From IMG/VR virus record IMGVR_UViG_3300031999_004847, positions 1 through 26,929 of that record: 26,929 nt of DNA. One strand, written 5' to 3'. Positions 4,336 through 26,929 of this stretch are shown piece by piece. The notes under the pieces are model-generated. The model was not told the DNA's origin and searched no databases. It was given only the letters and a program-made list of their open reading frames with translations. The stretch comes from a virus. Both the position numbers and the translations under genes were made by a program. Position 1 is the stretch's first letter. The number at the start of each line of letters is the position of its first letter.

Positions 4336-6129
4336 TCACGCGACAACTTCAACGTCAGGGTTGGTAAAGTTCCACCCTGACTTGGCTCTCCAGTAGTAGT
4401 AGGTGCCGGCGTCGAGATAGAAGGTCACTTTGCCGAGGGTGGTGGTGATGCCCGAGGCGATGACGTTCGCGCCTGCGGAGTCAGTGGTGGCCCACACTTG
4501 GGCATCAGCGATCGGCGTCGCATCTACGGATGACGTCAGGGTGTACACCCAGGTGACGGCGCCTGCGCCGGAACTGGCCCCGGCTGTGTCGAGAAGCAGA
4601 TCCAGCCTGCCTCCGTCGTGCCAGTCGGTTTGCAGCTCGTTGGTGTCGGCCAGGATAGCGGCGATCTCGGTGTCGAGATAGCCGGCTATGGTGGAGATCT
4701 CGGTGTCGATCAGGTCGTCCAGCGTGGTCCCGGTATCTTCCAGGATAGCGTCAACGTCGGTCCAGAGCTGCTCGCCGGCTTTGCCTGCGCTTACGTGGCC
4801 GGTCGCGGTCTCGTCCCAGACTGCATCCGCGACCTCGGCGGCGGTCGGCGGTGTGCCGGCTCCGCCTGCGGCATCCAGCAGGAGGTCGAGTCTGCCTCCA
4901 TCGTGCCAGTCGGTCTGTAGCTCGTTGGTGTCGGCCAGAATGGCGTCGATGTCGGTCTCGAGTGTGGTCCCGGTGTCCACGAGGATAGCGGCGGTATCTA
5001 CCTTGACTGCGGCGACATCTGCGGCAACGGTCGCGCCGGCAGGAGCGCCGCCCAGATACTTGCCGAACGTGGAAGCGGTGGTATGGCCACTGGCGAGTTC
5101 ATCCCAGACCTGATCTGCGATCTCGGCGACCGCGTCGGCGGCGAGCTCGGATGCGCCGATGGCGTCGGCTGCTATGGCAGCGGCGTCGATCGCGCCGGCT
5201 GCGAACGTGGCCGCGTCTATGGCTCCGTCTGCGACTGCCGCGGCGTTGATTGCGCCGGCTGCGAAGGTAGCGGCGTCGATGGCTGCGTCTGCGATGGCAG
5301 CAGCGTTGATCGCGCCTGCTGCGAAGGTAGCGGCGTCGATAGCTCCATCGTTGATGCTGGCTGCGGTGATCGCGTTGGCGGCGACTGCCCCGATGCTGGC
5401 GTCGATGCGACCGGAAACCAGAGTGGCAGGGATACGTCCATCGAGGGTCGTGCCGGTGTCTACCAGGATCGCGGCTGTGTCGACCTTGACGGCTGGCAGG
5501 TCGGTATCGTGAATGTCGTTGATGTGGGTATGGACGGCGGCAATGTCGGTGATTGCCGTGCCCACGTCCGTGTGAATGTTGGTGACATCGGCGGATAGTG
5601 TCGCGCCGATGGTTGGTGCTCCGCCGAGGTACAGGCCAAACGTGGTTGCTGCGGTGTGGCCTGCGACGGCCTCATCCCAGACTGCATCCACGAGGACAGT
5701 AGCCTGGTCGTGTACGGCGACTTCGGGCACACCTGCGGTGCCGGCAGCGTGACACGCGGTTCCGATCCACTGCGTGACCGAAACGTCGAGGATGTCTGCA
5801 CCAAAGAGCGAATCCCACACGTTGGCTGGCACAACCATGCATTCTTTCCACACGGGCAACGCTCCGGCCATGTTGATCGCAATGCTCAAGGCTCCGAGTG
5901 TGTTCGTGTCGGTGGTGCTGAGTGGAATGGTATACCATCCGTTATGTGCGGCGTCGTGGACGCCGTGTGTTGTGTCGCCTTTGAGTGTGAACGCGCCGCC
6001 GTTCTTGGAGAGGAGAACCTCTTGCTCTGTGATGTCCAGGGCGATTTCTGCGGTGGCCCCATCCGTTGCGTCCACGAACGGACCCATGACCAGGGTGACG
6101 GCCGTCGATTGTTTGAGCCATACGGTCAT
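4336..6129 (-). CDS. Repetitive tail-fibre-like protein, 597 aa
   Basis: Probable trimeric fibre or appendage protein. The start chosen is ATG at 6129, behind CAGGAGGCCAGC and overlapping the previous stop as ATGA. Residues 1-130 form a beta-rich head (TVTLVMGPF... WYTIPLSTTDT). The middle repeats VWDEA or VWDEL, STFGxYLGGAP, VDTAAILVDTGTTL and AILADTNELQTDWHDGGRL. It also has a strongly periodic Ala/Ile stretch (AIDAATFAAGAINAAAIAD and relatives, near residues 250-340), typical of triple-stranded fibre shafts. The C-terminal 75 residues resemble a carboxypeptidase-regulatory/Ig-like beta domain (PIADAQVWATTD... GTYYYWRAKSG). It sits with lectin-like genes. Exact location on the virion is unknown. 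Confidence 0.8.
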   Translation of the reverse strand: MTVWLKQSTAVTLVMGPFVDATDGATAEIALDITEQEVLLSKNGGAFTLKGDTTHGVHDAAHNGWYTIPLSTTDTNTLGALSIAINMAGALPVWKECMVVPANVWDSLFGADILDVSVTQWIGTACHAAGTAGVPEVAVHDQATVLVDAVWDEAVAGHTAATTFGLYLGGAPTIGATLSADVTNIHTDVGTAITDIAAVHTHINDIHDTDLPAVKVDTAAILVDTGTTLDGRIPATLVSGRIDASIGAVAANAITAASINDGAIDAATFAAGAINAAAIADAAIDAATFAAGAINAAAVADGAIDAATFAAGAIDAAAIAADAIGASELAADAVAEIADQVWDELASGHTTASTFGKYLGGAPAGATVAADVAAVKVDTAAILVDTGTTLETDIDAILADTNELQTDWHDGGRLDLLLDAAGGAGTPPTAAEVADAVWDETATGHVSAGKAGEQLWTDVDAILEDTGTTLDDLIDTEISTIAGYLDTEIAAILADTNELQTDWHDGGRLDLLLDTAGASSGAGAVTWVYTLTSSVDATPIADAQVWATTDSAGANVIASGITTTLGKVTFYLDAGTYYYWRAKSGWNFTNPDVEVVA

Positions 6130-6770
6130 GCTGGCCTCCTGAGTCTGAACTGATGCATGGAGCGTGGCGGTTGGCCGCCAGCAGCGGCGACGGTACCCCC
6201 GCCAAAGTTGTCGAGAAGGGATGTGCTGTCGTCTCCTCCCATTCCGATGTGCCCGGCTGCGGTGTAGGTGGTGTCGGTTCGGGATCCCAGGCTGGCCCAG
6301 GTTCCACCGGTCTTGCGGTAGGCGGCGATGGCGCTGCCGATGGCCTCGATGCCGAGCGAGTCTCCGTTGCTGAAGTCCTGGGAGATGGTGGCGCCTAGCT
6401 GCGTGTTGCTGGCTCCTTCGAGGCGCAGGATATAGGTTTGATCCGTAGCACTGGCGATGTACAGATATTGTACCTGGTATCCATCGAGGGATGATCCTCC
6501 CTCGCTGGCCAGGCGGCAGGACACCCAGTCTTGACAGTAGTCTTGTGGCAGGGTGGGCATATCCGCGTACGCCTCGGAGTTTGGCCCGAAGGTGCTCGCG
6601 TTCCAATAATCGTCGGCAAAAACCGGGGAAACCGACGAGTCGGGGACTGCGACGTTGGAGACAATGGAAAAATCATCGGCACCTGGGTAGATGGGGCTGG
6701 TCCAGCCAGCCCCGAGGTCTCCGTTAGCACGGTTGAAGGCGTCAAGTACGCTGGTGGTCGGGAAGGCCAT
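6126..6770 (-). CDS. Concanavalin A-like (LamG-type) lectin-fold protein, 214 aa
   Basis: Probable glycan-binding virion protein. The N-terminus (FPTTSVLDAFNRANGDLGAGW), the strands YQVQYLYIASATDQTYILRLEG and SLGIEAIGSAIAAYRKTGGTW, and the closing HIGMGG...LLDNFGGGT match the jelly-roll pattern of LamG/concanavalin A-like domains common in phage appendages. The domain spans nearly the whole chain; the last 15 residues are basic (SMHQFRLRRPA). The start is ATG behind a purine-rich GAGAGGGGG. The stop overlaps the fibre gene (ATGA), implying coupled synthesis. Binding target unknown. Confidence 0.75.
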   Translation of the reverse strand: MAFPTTSVLDAFNRANGDLGAGWTSPIYPGADDFSIVSNVAVPDSSVSPVFADDYWNASTFGPNSEAYADMPTLPQDYCQDWVSCRLASEGGSSLDGYQVQYLYIASATDQTYILRLEGASNTQLGATISQDFSNGDSLGIEAIGSAIAAYRKTGGTWASLGSRTDTTYTAAGHIGMGGDDSTSLLDNFGGGTVAAAGGQPPRSMHQFRLRRPA

Positions 6771-16458: not shown

Positions 16459-17970
16459 TTACCTCCACCTGGCCGCGTCGATGGCGTCCAGCGGGTCAGG
16501 GACTTGGACCACGTCACTGGTTCCGGTGCCGGTCCACCCTTGGGCGTCAATGATGGTGCAGAGCGCCGCCGAGATCAGCATGTCGTCGTGGCCGTGGGAG
16601 ATGATGCCGTCATAGGCAACCGGCTCCCAGACGCCCCACTTCATGGCCTGGCCCGGGCCCGCGCTGCACTCGTACTGACAGTGCTCGAGCTCATACCAAA
16701 ACTGGGCCGTCTCGCTGGCCTGGTCGGGCACGTACTCGCGATAGCGCCCGGTCTCGATGACGCCGACAAAGTTCCATCCGAGGTCGGACTTGACCTTCTG
16801 CGAGAACACGACCGGGATGACCTTTTCCCCGAGGCTGCGGACCAGGAATGATGCCAGGCCCGCCCCGATGCCGGTGGCGTCGATGATGATCCAGATGGGA
16901 TGCCAGGTCGTGGCCAGGCCGACGATGGTCTCGTGCAGCGTGGAGTGGCGGATGCCCATCCAGCGCGCACGGTCGATTGTGCGGTAGACGGGCAGCAGCC
17001 CGGGGCGCGGCTCGATGTCCACGATCGTGAGGGCGGTAGCGTCCTGCTTGCGATTCTCGGATGTCTGGCGGGCGAGGGGATCCCCTGGCGTCTCCGTCTC
17101 GCCGGCAACGTCGATCAGGAAGGCGTAGCGGTGGCCGGCTTCGGGCACCCGCTGGCGCTGGTGATCACCGTGGACCATGGCGCACCTGGCCGGGCTGAAC
17201 AGGCCGCCCTGCGCGTCGATGGTCTCCAGATAGTACTGCGTTTTGATGAGGGGATGCTCTCGGCCGAGGCGCTCGACCTGGTCGTGTACGAACGTTCCGT
17301 ACTGCGGGACCTCAGCGCCCACGGCGTCGGCGTCGTAGGTAAACACCCTGCGCTGGCCGTCCGCAGCCTGCAGCCGGCCCAGGGCGAGGATCACCTGGTT
17401 GAGCATGGTCTGGCTGGTCCAGGCCGTGCCCCAGAAAACGCGCGTCGCGTTGGTCGAGGCAGCCATGGGTGTAAAGTCCTTGTCCCACTTGGCCTGGTCG
17501 ATGTCTTGGGCCTCATCTGCCTCGAGGAGCAGGTCGGCGGTGGCGCCGACGACGTTGGAGGAGGGGTCGGCGGAGAAGAACATCGCGCGTGCTCGGCCCA
17601 ACTCAATGATGTACCCCTCGCGCCTGCGATACTGGCCCTCGTTCCATGGGTTGTTGAGGCGGTCCAGCAGGCGCAGGATGCTATTGATCGTCTGGGGCTT
17701 GAAAGTGGGGCTGGCCTTGACGATCTGCCCGCCTTTGCGCTGAAAAAGGTTCAGCAGGTAGGCCTCGAGTTGACCACTGAGCTCGTTTTTGCCTGCTTGC
17801 CTTGACATCATCACGGCGAAAGTCAGCCCCTTTCCCTCGAGAATGCTAGCCAGGATGGCTTGCGCTGGCTCGAGTTGGTACTTGCGCAGCGGCTTCTTGG
17901 TAACGACCTGGCTGAACGTGTGCATGTCGCTCAGCCAGGCTTTGATGGCCAGTGTGAGCGGTGAGGTCAC
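16459..17970 (-). CDS. terL: Terminase large subunit (ATPase and nuclease), 503 aa
   Basis: DNA-packaging motor. It has a Walker A-like SRQAGKNE at residues 56-63, Walker B at 147-153 (LLLEADEA, acidic pair), and coupling motif region FWGTAW near 179-184. The RNase H-like nuclease has acidic residues Asp287 (FLIDVAG), Asp364 (IIIDATG) and Asp462/463 (HDDML). Length is normal. The start is GTG overlapping the TerS stop (GTGA), so translation is probably coupled. It lies second after the leader ORF behind the late promoter at 18482-18510. The family is certain; whether packaging is cos or headful cannot be judged from the sequence. Confidence 0.95.
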   Translation of the reverse strand: MTSPLTLAIKAWLSDMHTFSQVVTKKPLRKYQLEPAQAILASILEGKGLTFAVMMSRQAGKNELSGQLEAYLLNLFQRKGGQIVKASPTFKPQTINSILRLLDRLNNPWNEGQYRRREGYIIELGRARAMFFSADPSSNVVGATADLLLEADEAQDIDQAKWDKDFTPMAASTNATRVFWGTAWTSQTMLNQVILALGRLQAADGQRRVFTYDADAVGAEVPQYGTFVHDQVERLGREHPLIKTQYYLETIDAQGGLFSPARCAMVHGDHQRQRVPEAGHRYAFLIDVAGETETPGDPLARQTSENRKQDATALTIVDIEPRPGLLPVYRTIDRARWMGIRHSTLHETIVGLATTWHPIWIIIDATGIGAGLASFLVRSLGEKVIPVVFSQKVKSDLGWNFVGVIETGRYREYVPDQASETAQFWYELEHCQYECSAGPGQAMKWGVWEPVAYDGIISHGHDDMLISAALCTIIDAQGWTGTGTSDVVQVPDPLDAIDAARWR

Positions 17971-18377
17971 AGTTCAACACCGATCTCCGCCCCTACCAGG
18001 TCAAGCGCCTCACTGATGGCCGTGGCCAGTGCCGGATTGACGTTTCCGGCGTCCGTGTCCTTTAGCAGGTGCGCCAGGCGGGACACCAGTTGACCCTGCA
18101 GGGTCCCGAGTCGCGCATAGTCGGCGGGCTCCAGGTCGTCCAGGTGGCCGTCGATGTAGGCGGCGAGTTGGTCCAGGCGGCGCGCGAGCTGAGCGGTGAT
18201 GGTCGGCAGGTTGGGTTGCTTCGAGTACGCGCCGTGGGTCTGAGCGTTCTGGTTACCCTGTGGTGCGCCGGCCCTTGATCCGCTTGCGTGAGCTGCGCAC
18301 CTGGGCGGGTCGGTGTGGGCTTGGGCCCAGGCTTTGCAGGGGATCCCTTTGGCGGTGGTTGCCGTGCATCTTTGCAT
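17967..18377 (-). CDS. Terminase small subunit-like protein, 136 aa
   Basis: Probable packaging recognition subunit. ATG behind CTGGAGGCAAACA. The N-terminus has a Cys/His cluster (RCTATTAKGIPCKAW ... RCAAH) that can hold zinc. It is followed by GAPQGNQNAQTHGAYS, a phrase common at the start of terminase small subunits and related phage DNA-binding proteins. The rest is helical (ITAQLARRLDQLAAYIDGHLDDL, RLGTLQGQLVSRLAHLL), as in TerS oligomerisation domains. Directly upstream of TerL with a GTGA overlap. Confidence 0.8.
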   Translation of the reverse strand: MQRCTATTAKGIPCKAWAQAHTDPPRCAAHASGSRAGAPQGNQNAQTHGAYSKQPNLPTITAQLARRLDQLAAYIDGHLDDLEPADYARLGTLQGQLVSRLAHLLKDTDAGNVNPALATAISEALDLVGAEIGVEL

Positions 18378-18742: not shown

Positions 18743-19438
18743 CTAAGGCAGATAGACGATCTCGAGCAGTGGGTTCTTGAAGATCCCGCGCACCGTGCGC
18801 AGGACCATGGGGTCCAGTCGATGTCTGAGCCACTCGCTGCCGTAGGTGTCGCGGCAGTGGATGGTGGCTATGTTTCCTTCCAGGACTAGAGCTGTGCCGG
18901 CGAGCCAGGTATCGAACGCGGTCCTGGTCATTTGCATCTGGAGCTCGCCGAGACACTCAACCCATTTCTGCGTAGTCTCTGGGTTAGTCTCTGGTAACAT
19001 GGGGCCATTTTGGCCCTCTCCATTGGGCCACTCTGTCCCCATCGATGGGGCCAACTTGGCCTGCTCCATGGGGCCATTTTGGCCCCATGGGGGGGCTGTG
19101 AGGGCGTCGGCGCGGGCCTTGACCACGGTGTACCAGTTGGTCTGATCGTACTGGTAGAGGTTGTAGTTGGCGACGAGGAGCAGGTCGCGCGCGCGCAGGC
19201 GGGCGATGATGCGTTTGATGGTCCTGGTGCTCCACCAGGGCATCTGGATTTGCCATGATTTGAGCGTGTTCCAGATCCACCATTGGCCATTGTGGTAGTG
19301 GCGCAGGTCGCGCGCGCGGCGGTAGTGTTCGCACCAGAACCAGCACTGCTGTAGAAAGAGTGCGTCATCCAGCCCGATGGCTATGGCCAGGCTGGGCAGG
19401 ATCAGCATGGGCGGCTCGTCTAGGAGGTTGGAGCTCAT
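18743..19438 (-). CDS. Phage replication initiator: winged-helix domain plus DnaA domain I-like region, 231 aa
   Basis: Residues 10-108 match phage replisome-organizer winged helices: LPSLAIAIGLDDALFLQQCWFW, NGQWWIWNTLKSWQ, MPWWSTRTIKRIIARLRARDLL, then NYNxxxYDxTNWYT. Residues 155-231 resemble DnaA domain I (WVECLGELQMQMTRTAFDTWLAG, IHCRDTYGSEWLRHRL, FKNPLLEIVYL), which recruits helicase in DnaA. The Gly/Pro linker (117-147) is encoded by four 23-bp iterons, as lambda O carries ori within its gene. It probably binds the iterons and loads host helicase. The start ATG overlaps the upstream stop (ATGA); ribosome-binding site weak. Confidence 0.75.
   Translation of the reverse strand: MSSNLLDEPPMLILPSLAIAIGLDDALFLQQCWFWCEHYRRARDLRHYHNGQWWIWNTLKSWQIQMPWWSTRTIKRIIARLRARDLLLVANYNLYQYDQTNWYTVVKARADALTAPPWGQNGPMEQAKLAPSMGTEWPNGEGQNGPMLPETNPETTQKWVECLGELQMQMTRTAFDTWLAGTALVLEGNIATIHCRDTYGSEWLRHRLDPMVLRTVRGIFKNPLLEIVYLP
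18999..19090. repeat. Four 23-bp iterons, probable replication origin
   Basis: Units start at 18999, 19022, 19045 and 19068, each exactly 23 bp, beginning ATGGGGCCA (second unit ATTGGGCCA). Units 1 and 4 contain the dyad GGGCCATTTTGGCCC; units 2 and 3 are degenerate on the right arm. Since 23 is not a multiple of three, the repeats are conserved as DNA, not as peptide repeats. Their place inside the initiator gene is the lambda O/ori arrangement. No marked AT-rich segment was seen beside them. Confidence 0.8.
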
Positions 19439-19701
19439 GATGGTCTGGCCTGGCCGAGGTCCATGTACTGGAGGGTCAGGCCGGCCCAGTTCGCATCAGT
19501 GGCCGTGACTGTCTCATCGATGCGCCCTGTTGCGACGTCACAAAAGCAGGCGAGAAACTCGGGCAGCGTGCGGGGATCTCCGCCCGGACCTGCTGGTCCG
19601 CCGTCTTCCTTCCAGCAGTCCATGATTGCGTGGTACTCGGCTTCGATGGCTGGCGTGATGGGGATGAACTCGTGTTCTGTGCGGTCGTAGATTTCGAGCA
19701 T
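19435..19701 (-). CDS. Small acidic protein upstream of replication initiator, 88 aa
   Basis: I chose ATG at 19701 (CGGAGGCACTAAC upstream) rather than the GTG at 19746, which overlaps the previous stop but has a weaker site. MLEIYDRTEHEFIPITPAIEAEYHAIMDCWKEDGG is acidic and helical; the end (WAGLTLQYMDLGQARPS) overlaps the initiator start. Two Cys in FLACFCDVAT. Not recognised; position suggests a replication accessory. Confidence 0.65.
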   Translation of the reverse strand: MLEIYDRTEHEFIPITPAIEAEYHAIMDCWKEDGGPAGPGGDPRTLPEFLACFCDVATGRIDETVTATDANWAGLTLQYMDLGQARPS

Positions 19702-19742
19702 GTTAGTGCCTCCGTGCGGTGGTCGGATGTACTCATCCGCAC

Positions 19743-19925
19743 TCACCGCCTCTTGTCGGTCTCGGGATCGCGGTAGCGGCGTAGCAGTGCCATGGTCAGC
19801 ACAACGTTCTCCTGGGTGACGATGACGCTGTGCTTCTTCAGGATGGCGTCGACGACTCGCCTGGGGATGTTGTACTGTGCCTTGGCCAGAATGTGGACGG
19901 TATGTTTCCAGTTGGGCGTTGGCAT
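19743..19925 (-). CDS. Small helical protein at head of replication operon, 60 aa
   Basis: ATG at 19925 behind AAAGGAGCAAACA. The sequence is basic and helical (TVHILAKAQYNIPRRVVDAILKKHSVIV, VVLTMALLRRYRDPETDKRR), in the range of small DNA-binding or repressor proteins, but with no clear helix-turn-helix. It is the first gene leftward from the divergent integrase region. Confidence 0.65.
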   Translation of the reverse strand: MPTPNWKHTVHILAKAQYNIPRRVVDAILKKHSVIVTQENVVLTMALLRRYRDPETDKRR

Positions 19926-19985: not shown

Positions 19986-20042
19986 TCTTCTGCGGGTGAG
20001 TACCGCGGTGACATCGTTAGCTTTGCCGAGGAGGTGGGAGCG

Positions 20043-20942
20043 ATGTTACTGCGGCTGGTAAGTGACTTTCTTACGGCTCGGCGTGCGGCTGGGTTGTCTT
20101 CTCAAAGTCTGCGTACTTATGGCTGGCATCTCGCGCGGATGGTCGCGTGGCTCCAGGAGCACGACGTTCTGGAGCTGGCGCAGCTGGACCGCGCGCTTTT
20201 GCGTTCCTGGGCAGCGGCGAACCGGGACCACTGGGGGCCGGCAACCTGTCGCTCGGCGATCATGGCTGCGCGGGCGTGGCTCCGTTTCATGTTCGAGGAG
20301 GGAGTGATCACCGTCGAGCTCGTGTCGGCCCTGCGCGTGCCGAAGGTCCCCCAGCGCGTGCAGCGCGTGGTGAATATCGAGGAGATTGGTCAGATGCTCG
20401 CCGCGTGCGATCGGTCGTGCGCTCGCGGCGTGCGGGACTTTGCGCTGCTGAACGTGCTGATCGATACGGGCCTGCGCTGCTCGGAGGTGTGCCGGCTTCT
20501 CGTGCAGGACGTCGACCTGGATCACCGTGTGGCTGTGGTACAGGTCAAGGGGGGCGATCAGGGTTTCGCCTATTTCGGCGACAGCACCGTGGCGGCTGTG
20601 GTGGCGTGGCTGGCGGTGCGCGTGGCCGGGCCTGCTGTGGGCGAATTGTTCGTGAGCGTGGGGGGCCTGACGCCGGGATCCCGGCTGACCTCGCGGGGCC
20701 TGCGGATCGTTGTTCTCCGGTGCGGAGAGCGTGCCGGCATCGGGGGTGTGTGTCCGCATGCGTTCCGGCGCGGGATGGCGACGATCGCGTTGCAGGCCGG
20801 TGCTCCGAGCCGTGTGGTGCAGGTGGCTGGCCGCTGGAGCGACATCCGCATGGTGGAACGGTACTCGCTCAGCTTGCGCGGCGGCGGGATGTATGACCGC
20901 TGGAGTCCTGCCGACCTGGCGAATGGAAAGAACGGCGAGTAG
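20043..20942 (+). CDS. int: Tyrosine recombinase (phage integrase), 299 aa
   Basis: Catalyses site-specific integration and excision. The start is ATG at 20043 with AGGAGGT 7 nt upstream; a GTG at 20034 lies inside that site. The N-terminal SAM-like core-binding domain spans residues about 5-90 (FLTARRAAGLSSQSLRTYGWHLARMVAWL). Catalytic residues: Arg145 (DTGLRCSEV), Lys169 (VKGGDQ), His239-x-x-Arg242 (PHAFRRGM), Trp265 in the usual His/Trp place (AGRWSD), Tyr274 (VERYS). It is one of only two genes I call on the plus strand and reads toward the tRNA-like attachment core 170 bp downstream. Confidence 0.95.
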   Translation: MLLRLVSDFLTARRAAGLSSQSLRTYGWHLARMVAWLQEHDVLELAQLDRALLRSWAAANRDHWGPATCRSAIMAARAWLRFMFEEGVITVELVSALRVPKVPQRVQRVVNIEEIGQMLAACDRSCARGVRDFALLNVLIDTGLRCSEVCRLLVQDVDLDHRVAVVQVKGGDQGFAYFGDSTVAAVVAWLAVRVAGPAVGELFVSVGGLTPGSRLTSRGLRIVVLRCGERAGIGGVCPHAFRRGMATIALQAGAPSRVVQVAGRWSDIRMVERYSLSLRGGGMYDRWSPADLANGKNGE

Positions 20943-21824: not shown

Positions 21825-21842
21825 TCCCCGGGCTGGCACTTT

Positions 21843-22022
21843 CCGCGCGGTGCGGAGTACTCGACGCTCCGCGCTCCCCTCCTCTCCGCGCGGTGCGGAG
21901 TACTCGACGCTCCGCGCCTCCCTCCTCTCCGCGCGGTGCGGAGTACTCGACGCTCCGCGCTCCCCTCCTCTCCGCGCGGTGCGGAGTACTCGACGCTCCG
22001 CGCCTCCCTCCTCTCCGCGCGG
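21843..22022. repeat. 43-bp tandem hairpin repeats, four units plus part
   Basis: Units start at 21843, 21886, 21929 and 21972, with a partial one at 22015. Each contains GCGGAG...CTCCGC with a 9-nt loop including the GAGTACTC palindrome. Spacers alternate between GCTCCCCTCC (units 1, 3) and GCCTCCCTCC (2, 4), so the array probably grew by duplication of an 86-bp pair. Period 43 is not a codon multiple, so it is non-coding. The rest of 21751-22072 shows no gene. Confidence 0.85.
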
Positions 22023-26769: not shown

Positions 26770-26825
26770 CGGCGCAGTGGCCAGGAGCCGCCGCAGCCGC
26801 CGCAGCGCGCCCACGGCTGCCCCCA

Positions 26826-26929
26826 GCGCGCCCTGGTCGGCCCCGACCTGCGTGCCCGCAGCGCGCCCTGCGCGCCCTGCGCGCCCTGGTCGGCCCCGAC
26901 CTGCGTGCCCGCAGCGCGCCCTGCGCGCC
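26826..26929. repeat. 53-bp GC-rich tandem repeat at window end
   Basis: CCCTGGTCGGCCCCGACC recurs at 26831 and 26884 (period 53 bp) with CGCAGCGCGCCCTGC between; the window stops within copy 2. It contains the dyad GGTCGGCCCCGACC. Fifty-three is not a codon multiple, so it is non-coding. Probably why the contig ends here. Confidence 0.8.

Follow-up and report, generated by a model that had tools for sequence, protein, structure and literature searches.

A predicted phage replication origin of iterons and a 12-mer array within the initiator gene

Our analysis points toward a theta-type replication origin that the phage carries inside its own initiator gene, after the manner of lambda and pSK41, and we put the probability of this reading, together with the mechanism proposed below, at about 0.85. 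The window, that is, the whole stretch of DNA analyzed (26,929 nucleotides), is a fragment, an incomplete virus record (IMGVR_UViG_3300031999_004847), and hence, further origins elsewhere are possible. What was established here is the anatomy of the DNA, selection at the DNA level, the conservation of two elements (iterons and a 12-mer array) throughout a family of relatives, and two domain folds.

Iterons and a 12-mer array in the initiator gene

The initiator (O-like or DnaD-like; 231 amino acids) is encoded at positions 18743 to 19438 on the minus strand and overlaps an upstream open reading frame (ORF) (19435 to 19746, minus strand) with no Pfam or PHROG match. Downstream and in the same direction lie the genes for the small terminase subunit (17967 to 18377, minus strand; PHROG 9231, 9e-6) and the large terminase subunit, TerL (16459 to 17970, minus strand; PF17289, 6.8e-7). 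The phage is judged to be temperate from its tyrosine integrase (20034 to 20942, plus strand; PF00589, 1.6e-27). Pfam and PHROG recognized no helicase or helicase loader among the ORFs tested from this fragmentary record, no tRNA was present in the window, and no near phage record for the window was found. In a search with the TerL of the window, the initiator was kept by only one close relative, an IMG/VR contig (L004), and the nearest TerL relatives (e.g., L296) are without the initiator gene altogether. By this comparison, the replication module has been exchanged. Positions 1 to 5506 of L296 hold a similar tyrosine integrase and both terminase subunits in the same order, the initiator being absent.

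The four repeats with a 23-bp period that had been predicted in the linker of the initiator (18999 to 19090) were confirmed, and their spacing is exactly 23/23/23. In the direction of transcription, iteron 1 (19068 to 19090; palindrome GGCCAAAATGGCC) is followed by iteron 2 (19045 to 19067; GGCCAAGTTGGCC), iteron 3 (19022 to 19044; GGACAGAGTGGCC), and iteron 4 (18999 to 19021; GGCCAAAATGGCC), all on the minus strand. Each has an imperfect palindrome at its center, GGCCAAAATGGCC-like when read on the coding (minus) strand. The copies are similar, not identical (65 to 80% over 46-bp units), and TRF found 70% matches at period 23 and 81% at period 46. The pattern TGGGGCCANNNTGGCCCC gave 10 matches on both strands, compared to a shuffle mean of 2.4, and all 8 good ones lie in the iteron region. 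With the protein held constant, the observed lag-23 score of 24.4 was reached by none of 5000 synonymous-codon shuffles (by 21 of 5000 if any lag from 15 to 60 was allowed). Furthermore, translation passes through the iterons in all three frames and yields peptides that do not resemble one another (GQNGPM, KLAPSM, EWPNG, and QNGPM). Both observations support the claim that selection acts on the repeats as DNA. In L004, the initiator gene is 98% identical and the iterons are identical; all 14 differences from the window lie outside the iterons, being too few and too clustered to prove constraint. GC skew, suggested as a check, keeps its sign around 19 kb; it speaks neither for nor against the origin and is uninformative as an origin test.

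Directly after the last iteron, and adjoining iteron 4, lies an element that the original prediction had overlooked, an array of 11/12-bp tandem units CAGAGANTACTA. It reads TAC-CAGAGACTAACC-CAGAGACTACG-CAGAAA (18965 to 18996, minus strand; units of 12 and 11 bp plus a partial one), and the coding strand just downstream of iteron 4 is TACCAGAGACTAACCCAGAGACTACGCAGA (18996 to 18967). The exact CAGAGANTANNNCAGAGANTA match at 18973 to 18993 had no counterpart in shuffles, two array units arose in only 3 of 5000 synonymous shuffles of the window gene, and the duplex stability of the array is among the lowest ~2% of all 36-bp stretches in the window. We infer that the array may be an origin-opening or helicase-entry element; we prefer for the 12-mers a single-strand or unwinding role like that of the RK2 13-mers. 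A pure DnaA-trio reading (complement 3'-[G/A]AT-GAT-5' once per unit) was rejected, as it covers only half of each unit.

The window contains further tandem repeats: a 43-bp unit at 21842 to 22022 (4.2 copies, 95% matches), a 39-bp unit at one end of the record (1 to 232; 5.9 copies, 95%), and a 53-bp unit at the other end (26800 to 26929; 2.4 copies, 92%). Repeats of 30/60 bp at 5153 to 5346, in a long ORF (4336 to 6606, minus strand), encode ADGAIDAATFAAGAINAAA-type peptide repeats and, unlike the 23-bp iterons, have a period that is a multiple of three.

Two domains of the initiator

The N-terminal winged-helix domain (19088 to 19417, minus strand; residues ~8 to 117), the predicted iteron-binding part, was modeled by AlphaFold with a pLDDT mostly of 91 to 98. 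The top four structures in VIA-align were RepA_N initiators (4pql, Z 10.5; 4pt7, 10.2; 5kbj, 9.7; 4pta, 9.5), with PLE RepA (Z 8.3) and the DnaD N-terminal domain (2v79, Z 7.5) in lower rows, at a scale on which winged helices generally score Z 7 to 8. Foldseek alone was not significant (E of 0.05). The model thus gives a strong lead toward a winged helix of the RepA_N/DnaD type. At the level of sequence, a profile search of the window ORFs matched residues 1 to 158 to PHROG 6493 (1.9e-29), and there was a distant O-like match (phrog_678, 2.1e-4); Pfam found neither the RepA_N domain PF06970 nor, at an E of ≤1, Phage_rep_O (PF04492). The N terminus had been taken for a replisome organizer, and this holds with respect to PHROG 6493; the lambda O (Phage_rep_O) family itself found no support, the nearest fold being RepA_N/DnaD.

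The C-terminal domain (18746 to 18982, minus strand; residues ~153 to 231) resembles DnaA domain I. Pfam DnaA_N was below threshold for the window protein (0.0026) and above it for the homologs L020 and L078, and phmmer aligned the protein with domain I of Bacillus subtilis DnaA (4tps) at 0.00036. The assignment made originally was upheld by the fold: a model of 84 amino acids (pLDDT 83) matched 4tps_D with an E of 3.5e-5 and a TM of 0.76 to 0.80, followed by 2e0g and, more weakly, by 2jmp and 2wp0. In the 231-amino-acid protein, Pfam matched neither the AAA+ domain III nor the DNA-binding domain IV of DnaA, nor the DnaD-like C terminus DnaB_2.

This C terminus belongs to a variable slot. Among 67 members of the family that were scanned, DnaB_2 was found in 17, Phg_2220_C in 11, and DnaA_N in 6, the last including the window and its 98% identical twin, which leaves four other members. 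As far as the predicted domains go, the N-domain of the family is fixed, the linker encodes the putative origin, and the C termini can be exchanged. The clostridial members L106 and L130 have an extra stretch of ~150 amino acids before DnaA domain I. We considered whether a phage helicase is absent from DnaA_N members and present in DnaD members, and dropped this as not discriminating, since 22 of 25 DnaB_2 members were likewise without one in the available part of their downstream flanks (tblastn).

In domain I of Escherichia coli DnaA, a tryptophan serves dimerization and Glu21 contacts DnaB (PMC5448010). The position of the dimerization tryptophan W6 is W159 in the initiator, that of F46 is Tyr, and that of Glu21 is Ala174. 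Because of Ala174, direct binding to DnaB in the manner of E. coli is uncertain. It is imaginable that the domain does not recruit a helicase but sequesters or redirects host DnaA, by domain-I dimerization or through DnaA regulators, as the retained W159 together with the alanine would allow. However, the glutamate is missing at this position from B. subtilis DnaA as well, and the same slot holds DnaB_2 or Phg_2220_C in relatives, consistent with recruitment of the replisome; we regard an action on host DnaA as possible, if somewhat unlikely, and keep to helicase recruitment as the presumed function.

Conservation of both elements among relatives

The family comprises 137 non-redundant members (<80% identity; tblastn and pattern scans), mostly on contigs of Bacillota but also of Pseudomonadota, Bacteroidota, and Chloroflexota. 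Over the 60 codons after the N-domain, self-similarity in the 137 members rose to a sharp peak at lags 22 and 23, and again at the multiples 44 to 46. The mean lag-22/23 scores were 10.3/9.5 in the linker, compared to 3.9/3.8 for the N-domain and 4.8/4.9 after synonymous shuffling, and 98 of 137 members beat synonymous shuffling at a P of ≤0.05 (82 at ≤0.01). Neither the N-domain of these genes nor their synonymous shuffles have such a peak; hence, the family as a whole is characterized by embedded repeats. The iteron sequences are lineage specific, yet they have in common a CAAAATG-type core and complementary flanks. Relatives that kept the peptide and not the DNA repeats would have spoken against a DNA-level function, and the opposite was seen: the periodicity is kept, and sequence and peptide vary.

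The array is present in 113 of the 137 relatives, far above synonymous shuffles, and 85 have both iterons and array. Its family consensus is TACCAGAGAcTACTACAGAGAcTACtacAgAgAatA. The pattern CAGAGANTA[CA] gave 176 hits in the linker region of the 137 genes, compared to 10.4 in synonymous shuffles, and 0.02 per kb outside the linker of the same genes; at least two hits were found in 57 genes, compared to a maximum of 1 in synonymous shuffles. With a slightly looser unit pattern, the units are mostly spaced by 12 (72 cases) or 11 bp (16 cases). Glutamate codons in the linker region are 247 GAG and 51 GAA, compared to 866 GAG and 1532 GAA elsewhere. The units change reading frame in 18 genes; in L168, for example, three near-identical 11-bp units encode RDY, PETT, and QRK. 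Unit copies spaced by 11 bp cross two or three frames in L168, L145, and L198 (TRDYTETT, PETT, QRK). A weight matrix exceeded 15 bits in 107 of 137 genes and in 37 after synonymous shuffling, a less clean test, since family members have the encoded peptide in common as well.

The 21-bp pattern CAGAGANTACTACAGAGANTA recurs in viral contigs, with matches at no fewer than 120 places. Of the loci inspected, 80 of 80 lie inside an open frame, and 61 are homologous to the family by BLAST; the other 19 ORFs had no BLAST match to it, several being shortened pieces. Eight further array-bearing initiators (four of these 19, L433, and three fetched records) all match O-like or DnaD-like PHROGs that cross-hit the family, and with several of the 19 fragmentary, we do not claim that unrelated initiators carry 12-mers independently. 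Most of the further loci looked at have 21- to 23-bp repeats of their own upstream of the array.

The few plasmid matches to the 12-mers lie in phage-type replication proteins, in prophage-like regions, or in stretches without a listed gene. On the Bacillus plasmid pBSG3 (L493, 700 to 860), the array and adjoining ~23-bp repeats are outside the annotated genes of an incomplete gene table, and a plus-strand ORF reads the array in another frame (LQRLLQRL). The segment and the initiator gene of Bacillus phage PM1 share 79% identity. The same type of segment, with iterons and a CAGAGATTACTA array and no listed gene, occurs on pEA19 (L498) and several 8.4-kb plasmids of B. velezensis; plasmids of the pBSG3 type are small and mobilizable. 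Possibly, the plasmid segment is a stolen phage origin, at which a helper phage would replicate the plasmid, or a remnant.

The array sequence (17-mers) appeared in no paper found in our search, most of the subscription literature lying outside it. With somewhat less than even confidence, we suggest that the array is a general, previously undescribed element for origin opening or for helicase/primase loading in initiator genes of phages and prophages of several phyla. Its sequence stays fixed amid diverging iterons, N-domains, and C-domains, which would suggest that it is read as single-stranded DNA, either by a host factor that is conserved or by a conserved face of the initiator.

Alternatively, CAGAGANTACTA could mark a recombination boundary, a short conserved DNA at which phages swap partner domains in frame. 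Indeed, its position is precisely the junction of the iteron-encoding linker with the variable C termini (DnaB_2, Phg_2220_C, DnaA_N), and all 80 of 80 exact two-unit copies are in one codon phase, a constraint that would be superfluous for a pure DNA site; for this reason, ancestry or in-frame module exchange has shaped the array as well. However, the array is kept across hosts even where the proteins around it are down to about 30% identity, it consists of tandem 11/12-bp units that switch frame in 18 genes, and a copy is found outside annotated genes on a plasmid, so that we consider a mere exchange site unlikely. Even less probable, by a wide measure, is that the repeats are autoregulatory operators that block transcription of their own gene, with the true origin at some other place. 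If the initiator bound a cluster of palindromes inside its gene, transcription could meet a roadblock there, but the pairing of iterons with a separate 12-bp array of low stability in the 85 members, the match of the layout to the tested origins of lambda and pSK41, and the persistence of the pair outside annotated genes on pBSG3 argue for an origin, with which autoregulation is not mutually exclusive. Finally, a merely repetitive, disordered protein linker, suggested by its predicted disorder (pLDDT ~50), has next to no chance given the period of 23, the three frames, and the unlike peptides; a peptide-level repeat is refuted by these frame results and by synonymous shuffling of the window and the family.

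Model of the origin and relation to known systems

In our model of an in-gene origin, the N-terminal winged helix would bind the four palindromic iterons, probably as dimers, at a spacing of 23 bp that corresponds to about two helical turns, and assemble with them into a nucleoprotein complex, after the example of lambda O and pSK41 Rep. This complex would strain and open the adjoining weak segment with its CAGAGANTACTA-type repeats, and the opened segment would take up a protein bound to single strands and the helicase. The DnaA-domain-I C terminus may contact the helicase, either host DnaB directly or with host DnaA or partners of DnaA in between; in relatives, DnaD-like or Phg_2220_C C termini would have this task. 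Binding, melting, and recruitment, and the strand or protein that reads the 12-mers, are the steps that we infer.

Origins within initiator genes are textbook knowledge from lambda and RepA_N plasmids. The lambda-O layout proposed originally, with in-gene iterons between the DNA-binding and the partner domain, is borne out: lambda O likewise has an N-terminal DNA-binding and a C-terminal partner-binding half, and ori-lambda has four palindromic iterons of ~18 to 23 bp in midgene, followed by a weak, AT-rich segment (PMC7466680). The annotated lambda iterons occupy the same position in the gene (18 bp, spacing 20/24/23, core TCAAAACGA), and both iteron cores include CAAAA. However, the window initiator has no Phage_rep_O match, the iteron sequence is not the same, the C terminus is DnaA domain I where that of lambda O binds P, and the weak segment of lambda has no clear CAGAGA array (score −5.3).

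The RepA_N initiators (pSK41, pTZ2162; PLE RepA) are the best structural matches of the N-domain. They share four central Rep boxes, inverted repeats centered on A tracts, and interchangeable C termini (PMC5703833, PMC7145576); in pSK41, the four boxes bound by Rep lie in the center of rep, where the ori-encoded linker is dispensable as protein (PMC5703833), and RepA_N iterons are inverted repeats that converge on a poly-A tract (PMC7145576). Their C-terminal domain, however, is DnaD-like and binds DnaG, whereas the window protein has DnaA domain I and no PF06970. Also related are the "DnaD-like helicase loader" initiators of PHROG 6493 (e.g., Staphylococcus phage P954 gp20, Bacillus phage vB_BhaS-171), with a homologous N-domain (about 40% identity), the same in-gene 22/23-bp repeats, and the same 12-mers; they differ in the C terminus, which is DnaB_2 or Phg_2220_C in place of DnaA_N. 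Plasmid initiators of the HTH_36 plus DnaA_N type (Paenibacillus, Terribacillus; PHROG 26369) also join a DNA-binding N-domain to a C-terminal DnaA domain I, but the N-domain is another one, and the four loci checked had no 12-mer array. The 13-mers of RK2 oriV and oriC, which are DNA unwinding elements, are likewise short tandem direct repeats beside initiator sites, and one strand of the RK2 13-mers is bound sequence-specifically by the Rep protein (PMC4081077). In contrast, the 12-mers of type CAGAGANTACTA are only moderately AT rich, lie within coding sequence, and are near-invariant across host phyla.

The fusion with a DnaA domain, originally thought to be new, thus turned out to be rare and not unique: there are four other members, and DnaA_N fusions are, by their domain annotation, already known from the plasmid initiators. 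Two things appear to be new: a near-invariant array of 12-mers, taken as an origin element of the whole family, and the combination of a RepA_N/DnaD-type N-domain with DnaA domain I.

In-gene origins in the style of lambda and pSK41 would be the rule in a very large and mostly unannotated family of phage initiators, and the 22/23-bp iterons together with the CAGAGA 12-mers would give an exact signature for locating phage origins in metagenomes. The version with DnaA domain I may offer a natural minimal system for asking whether this domain alone, without the AAA+ and DNA-binding domains, is enough to deliver a helicase.
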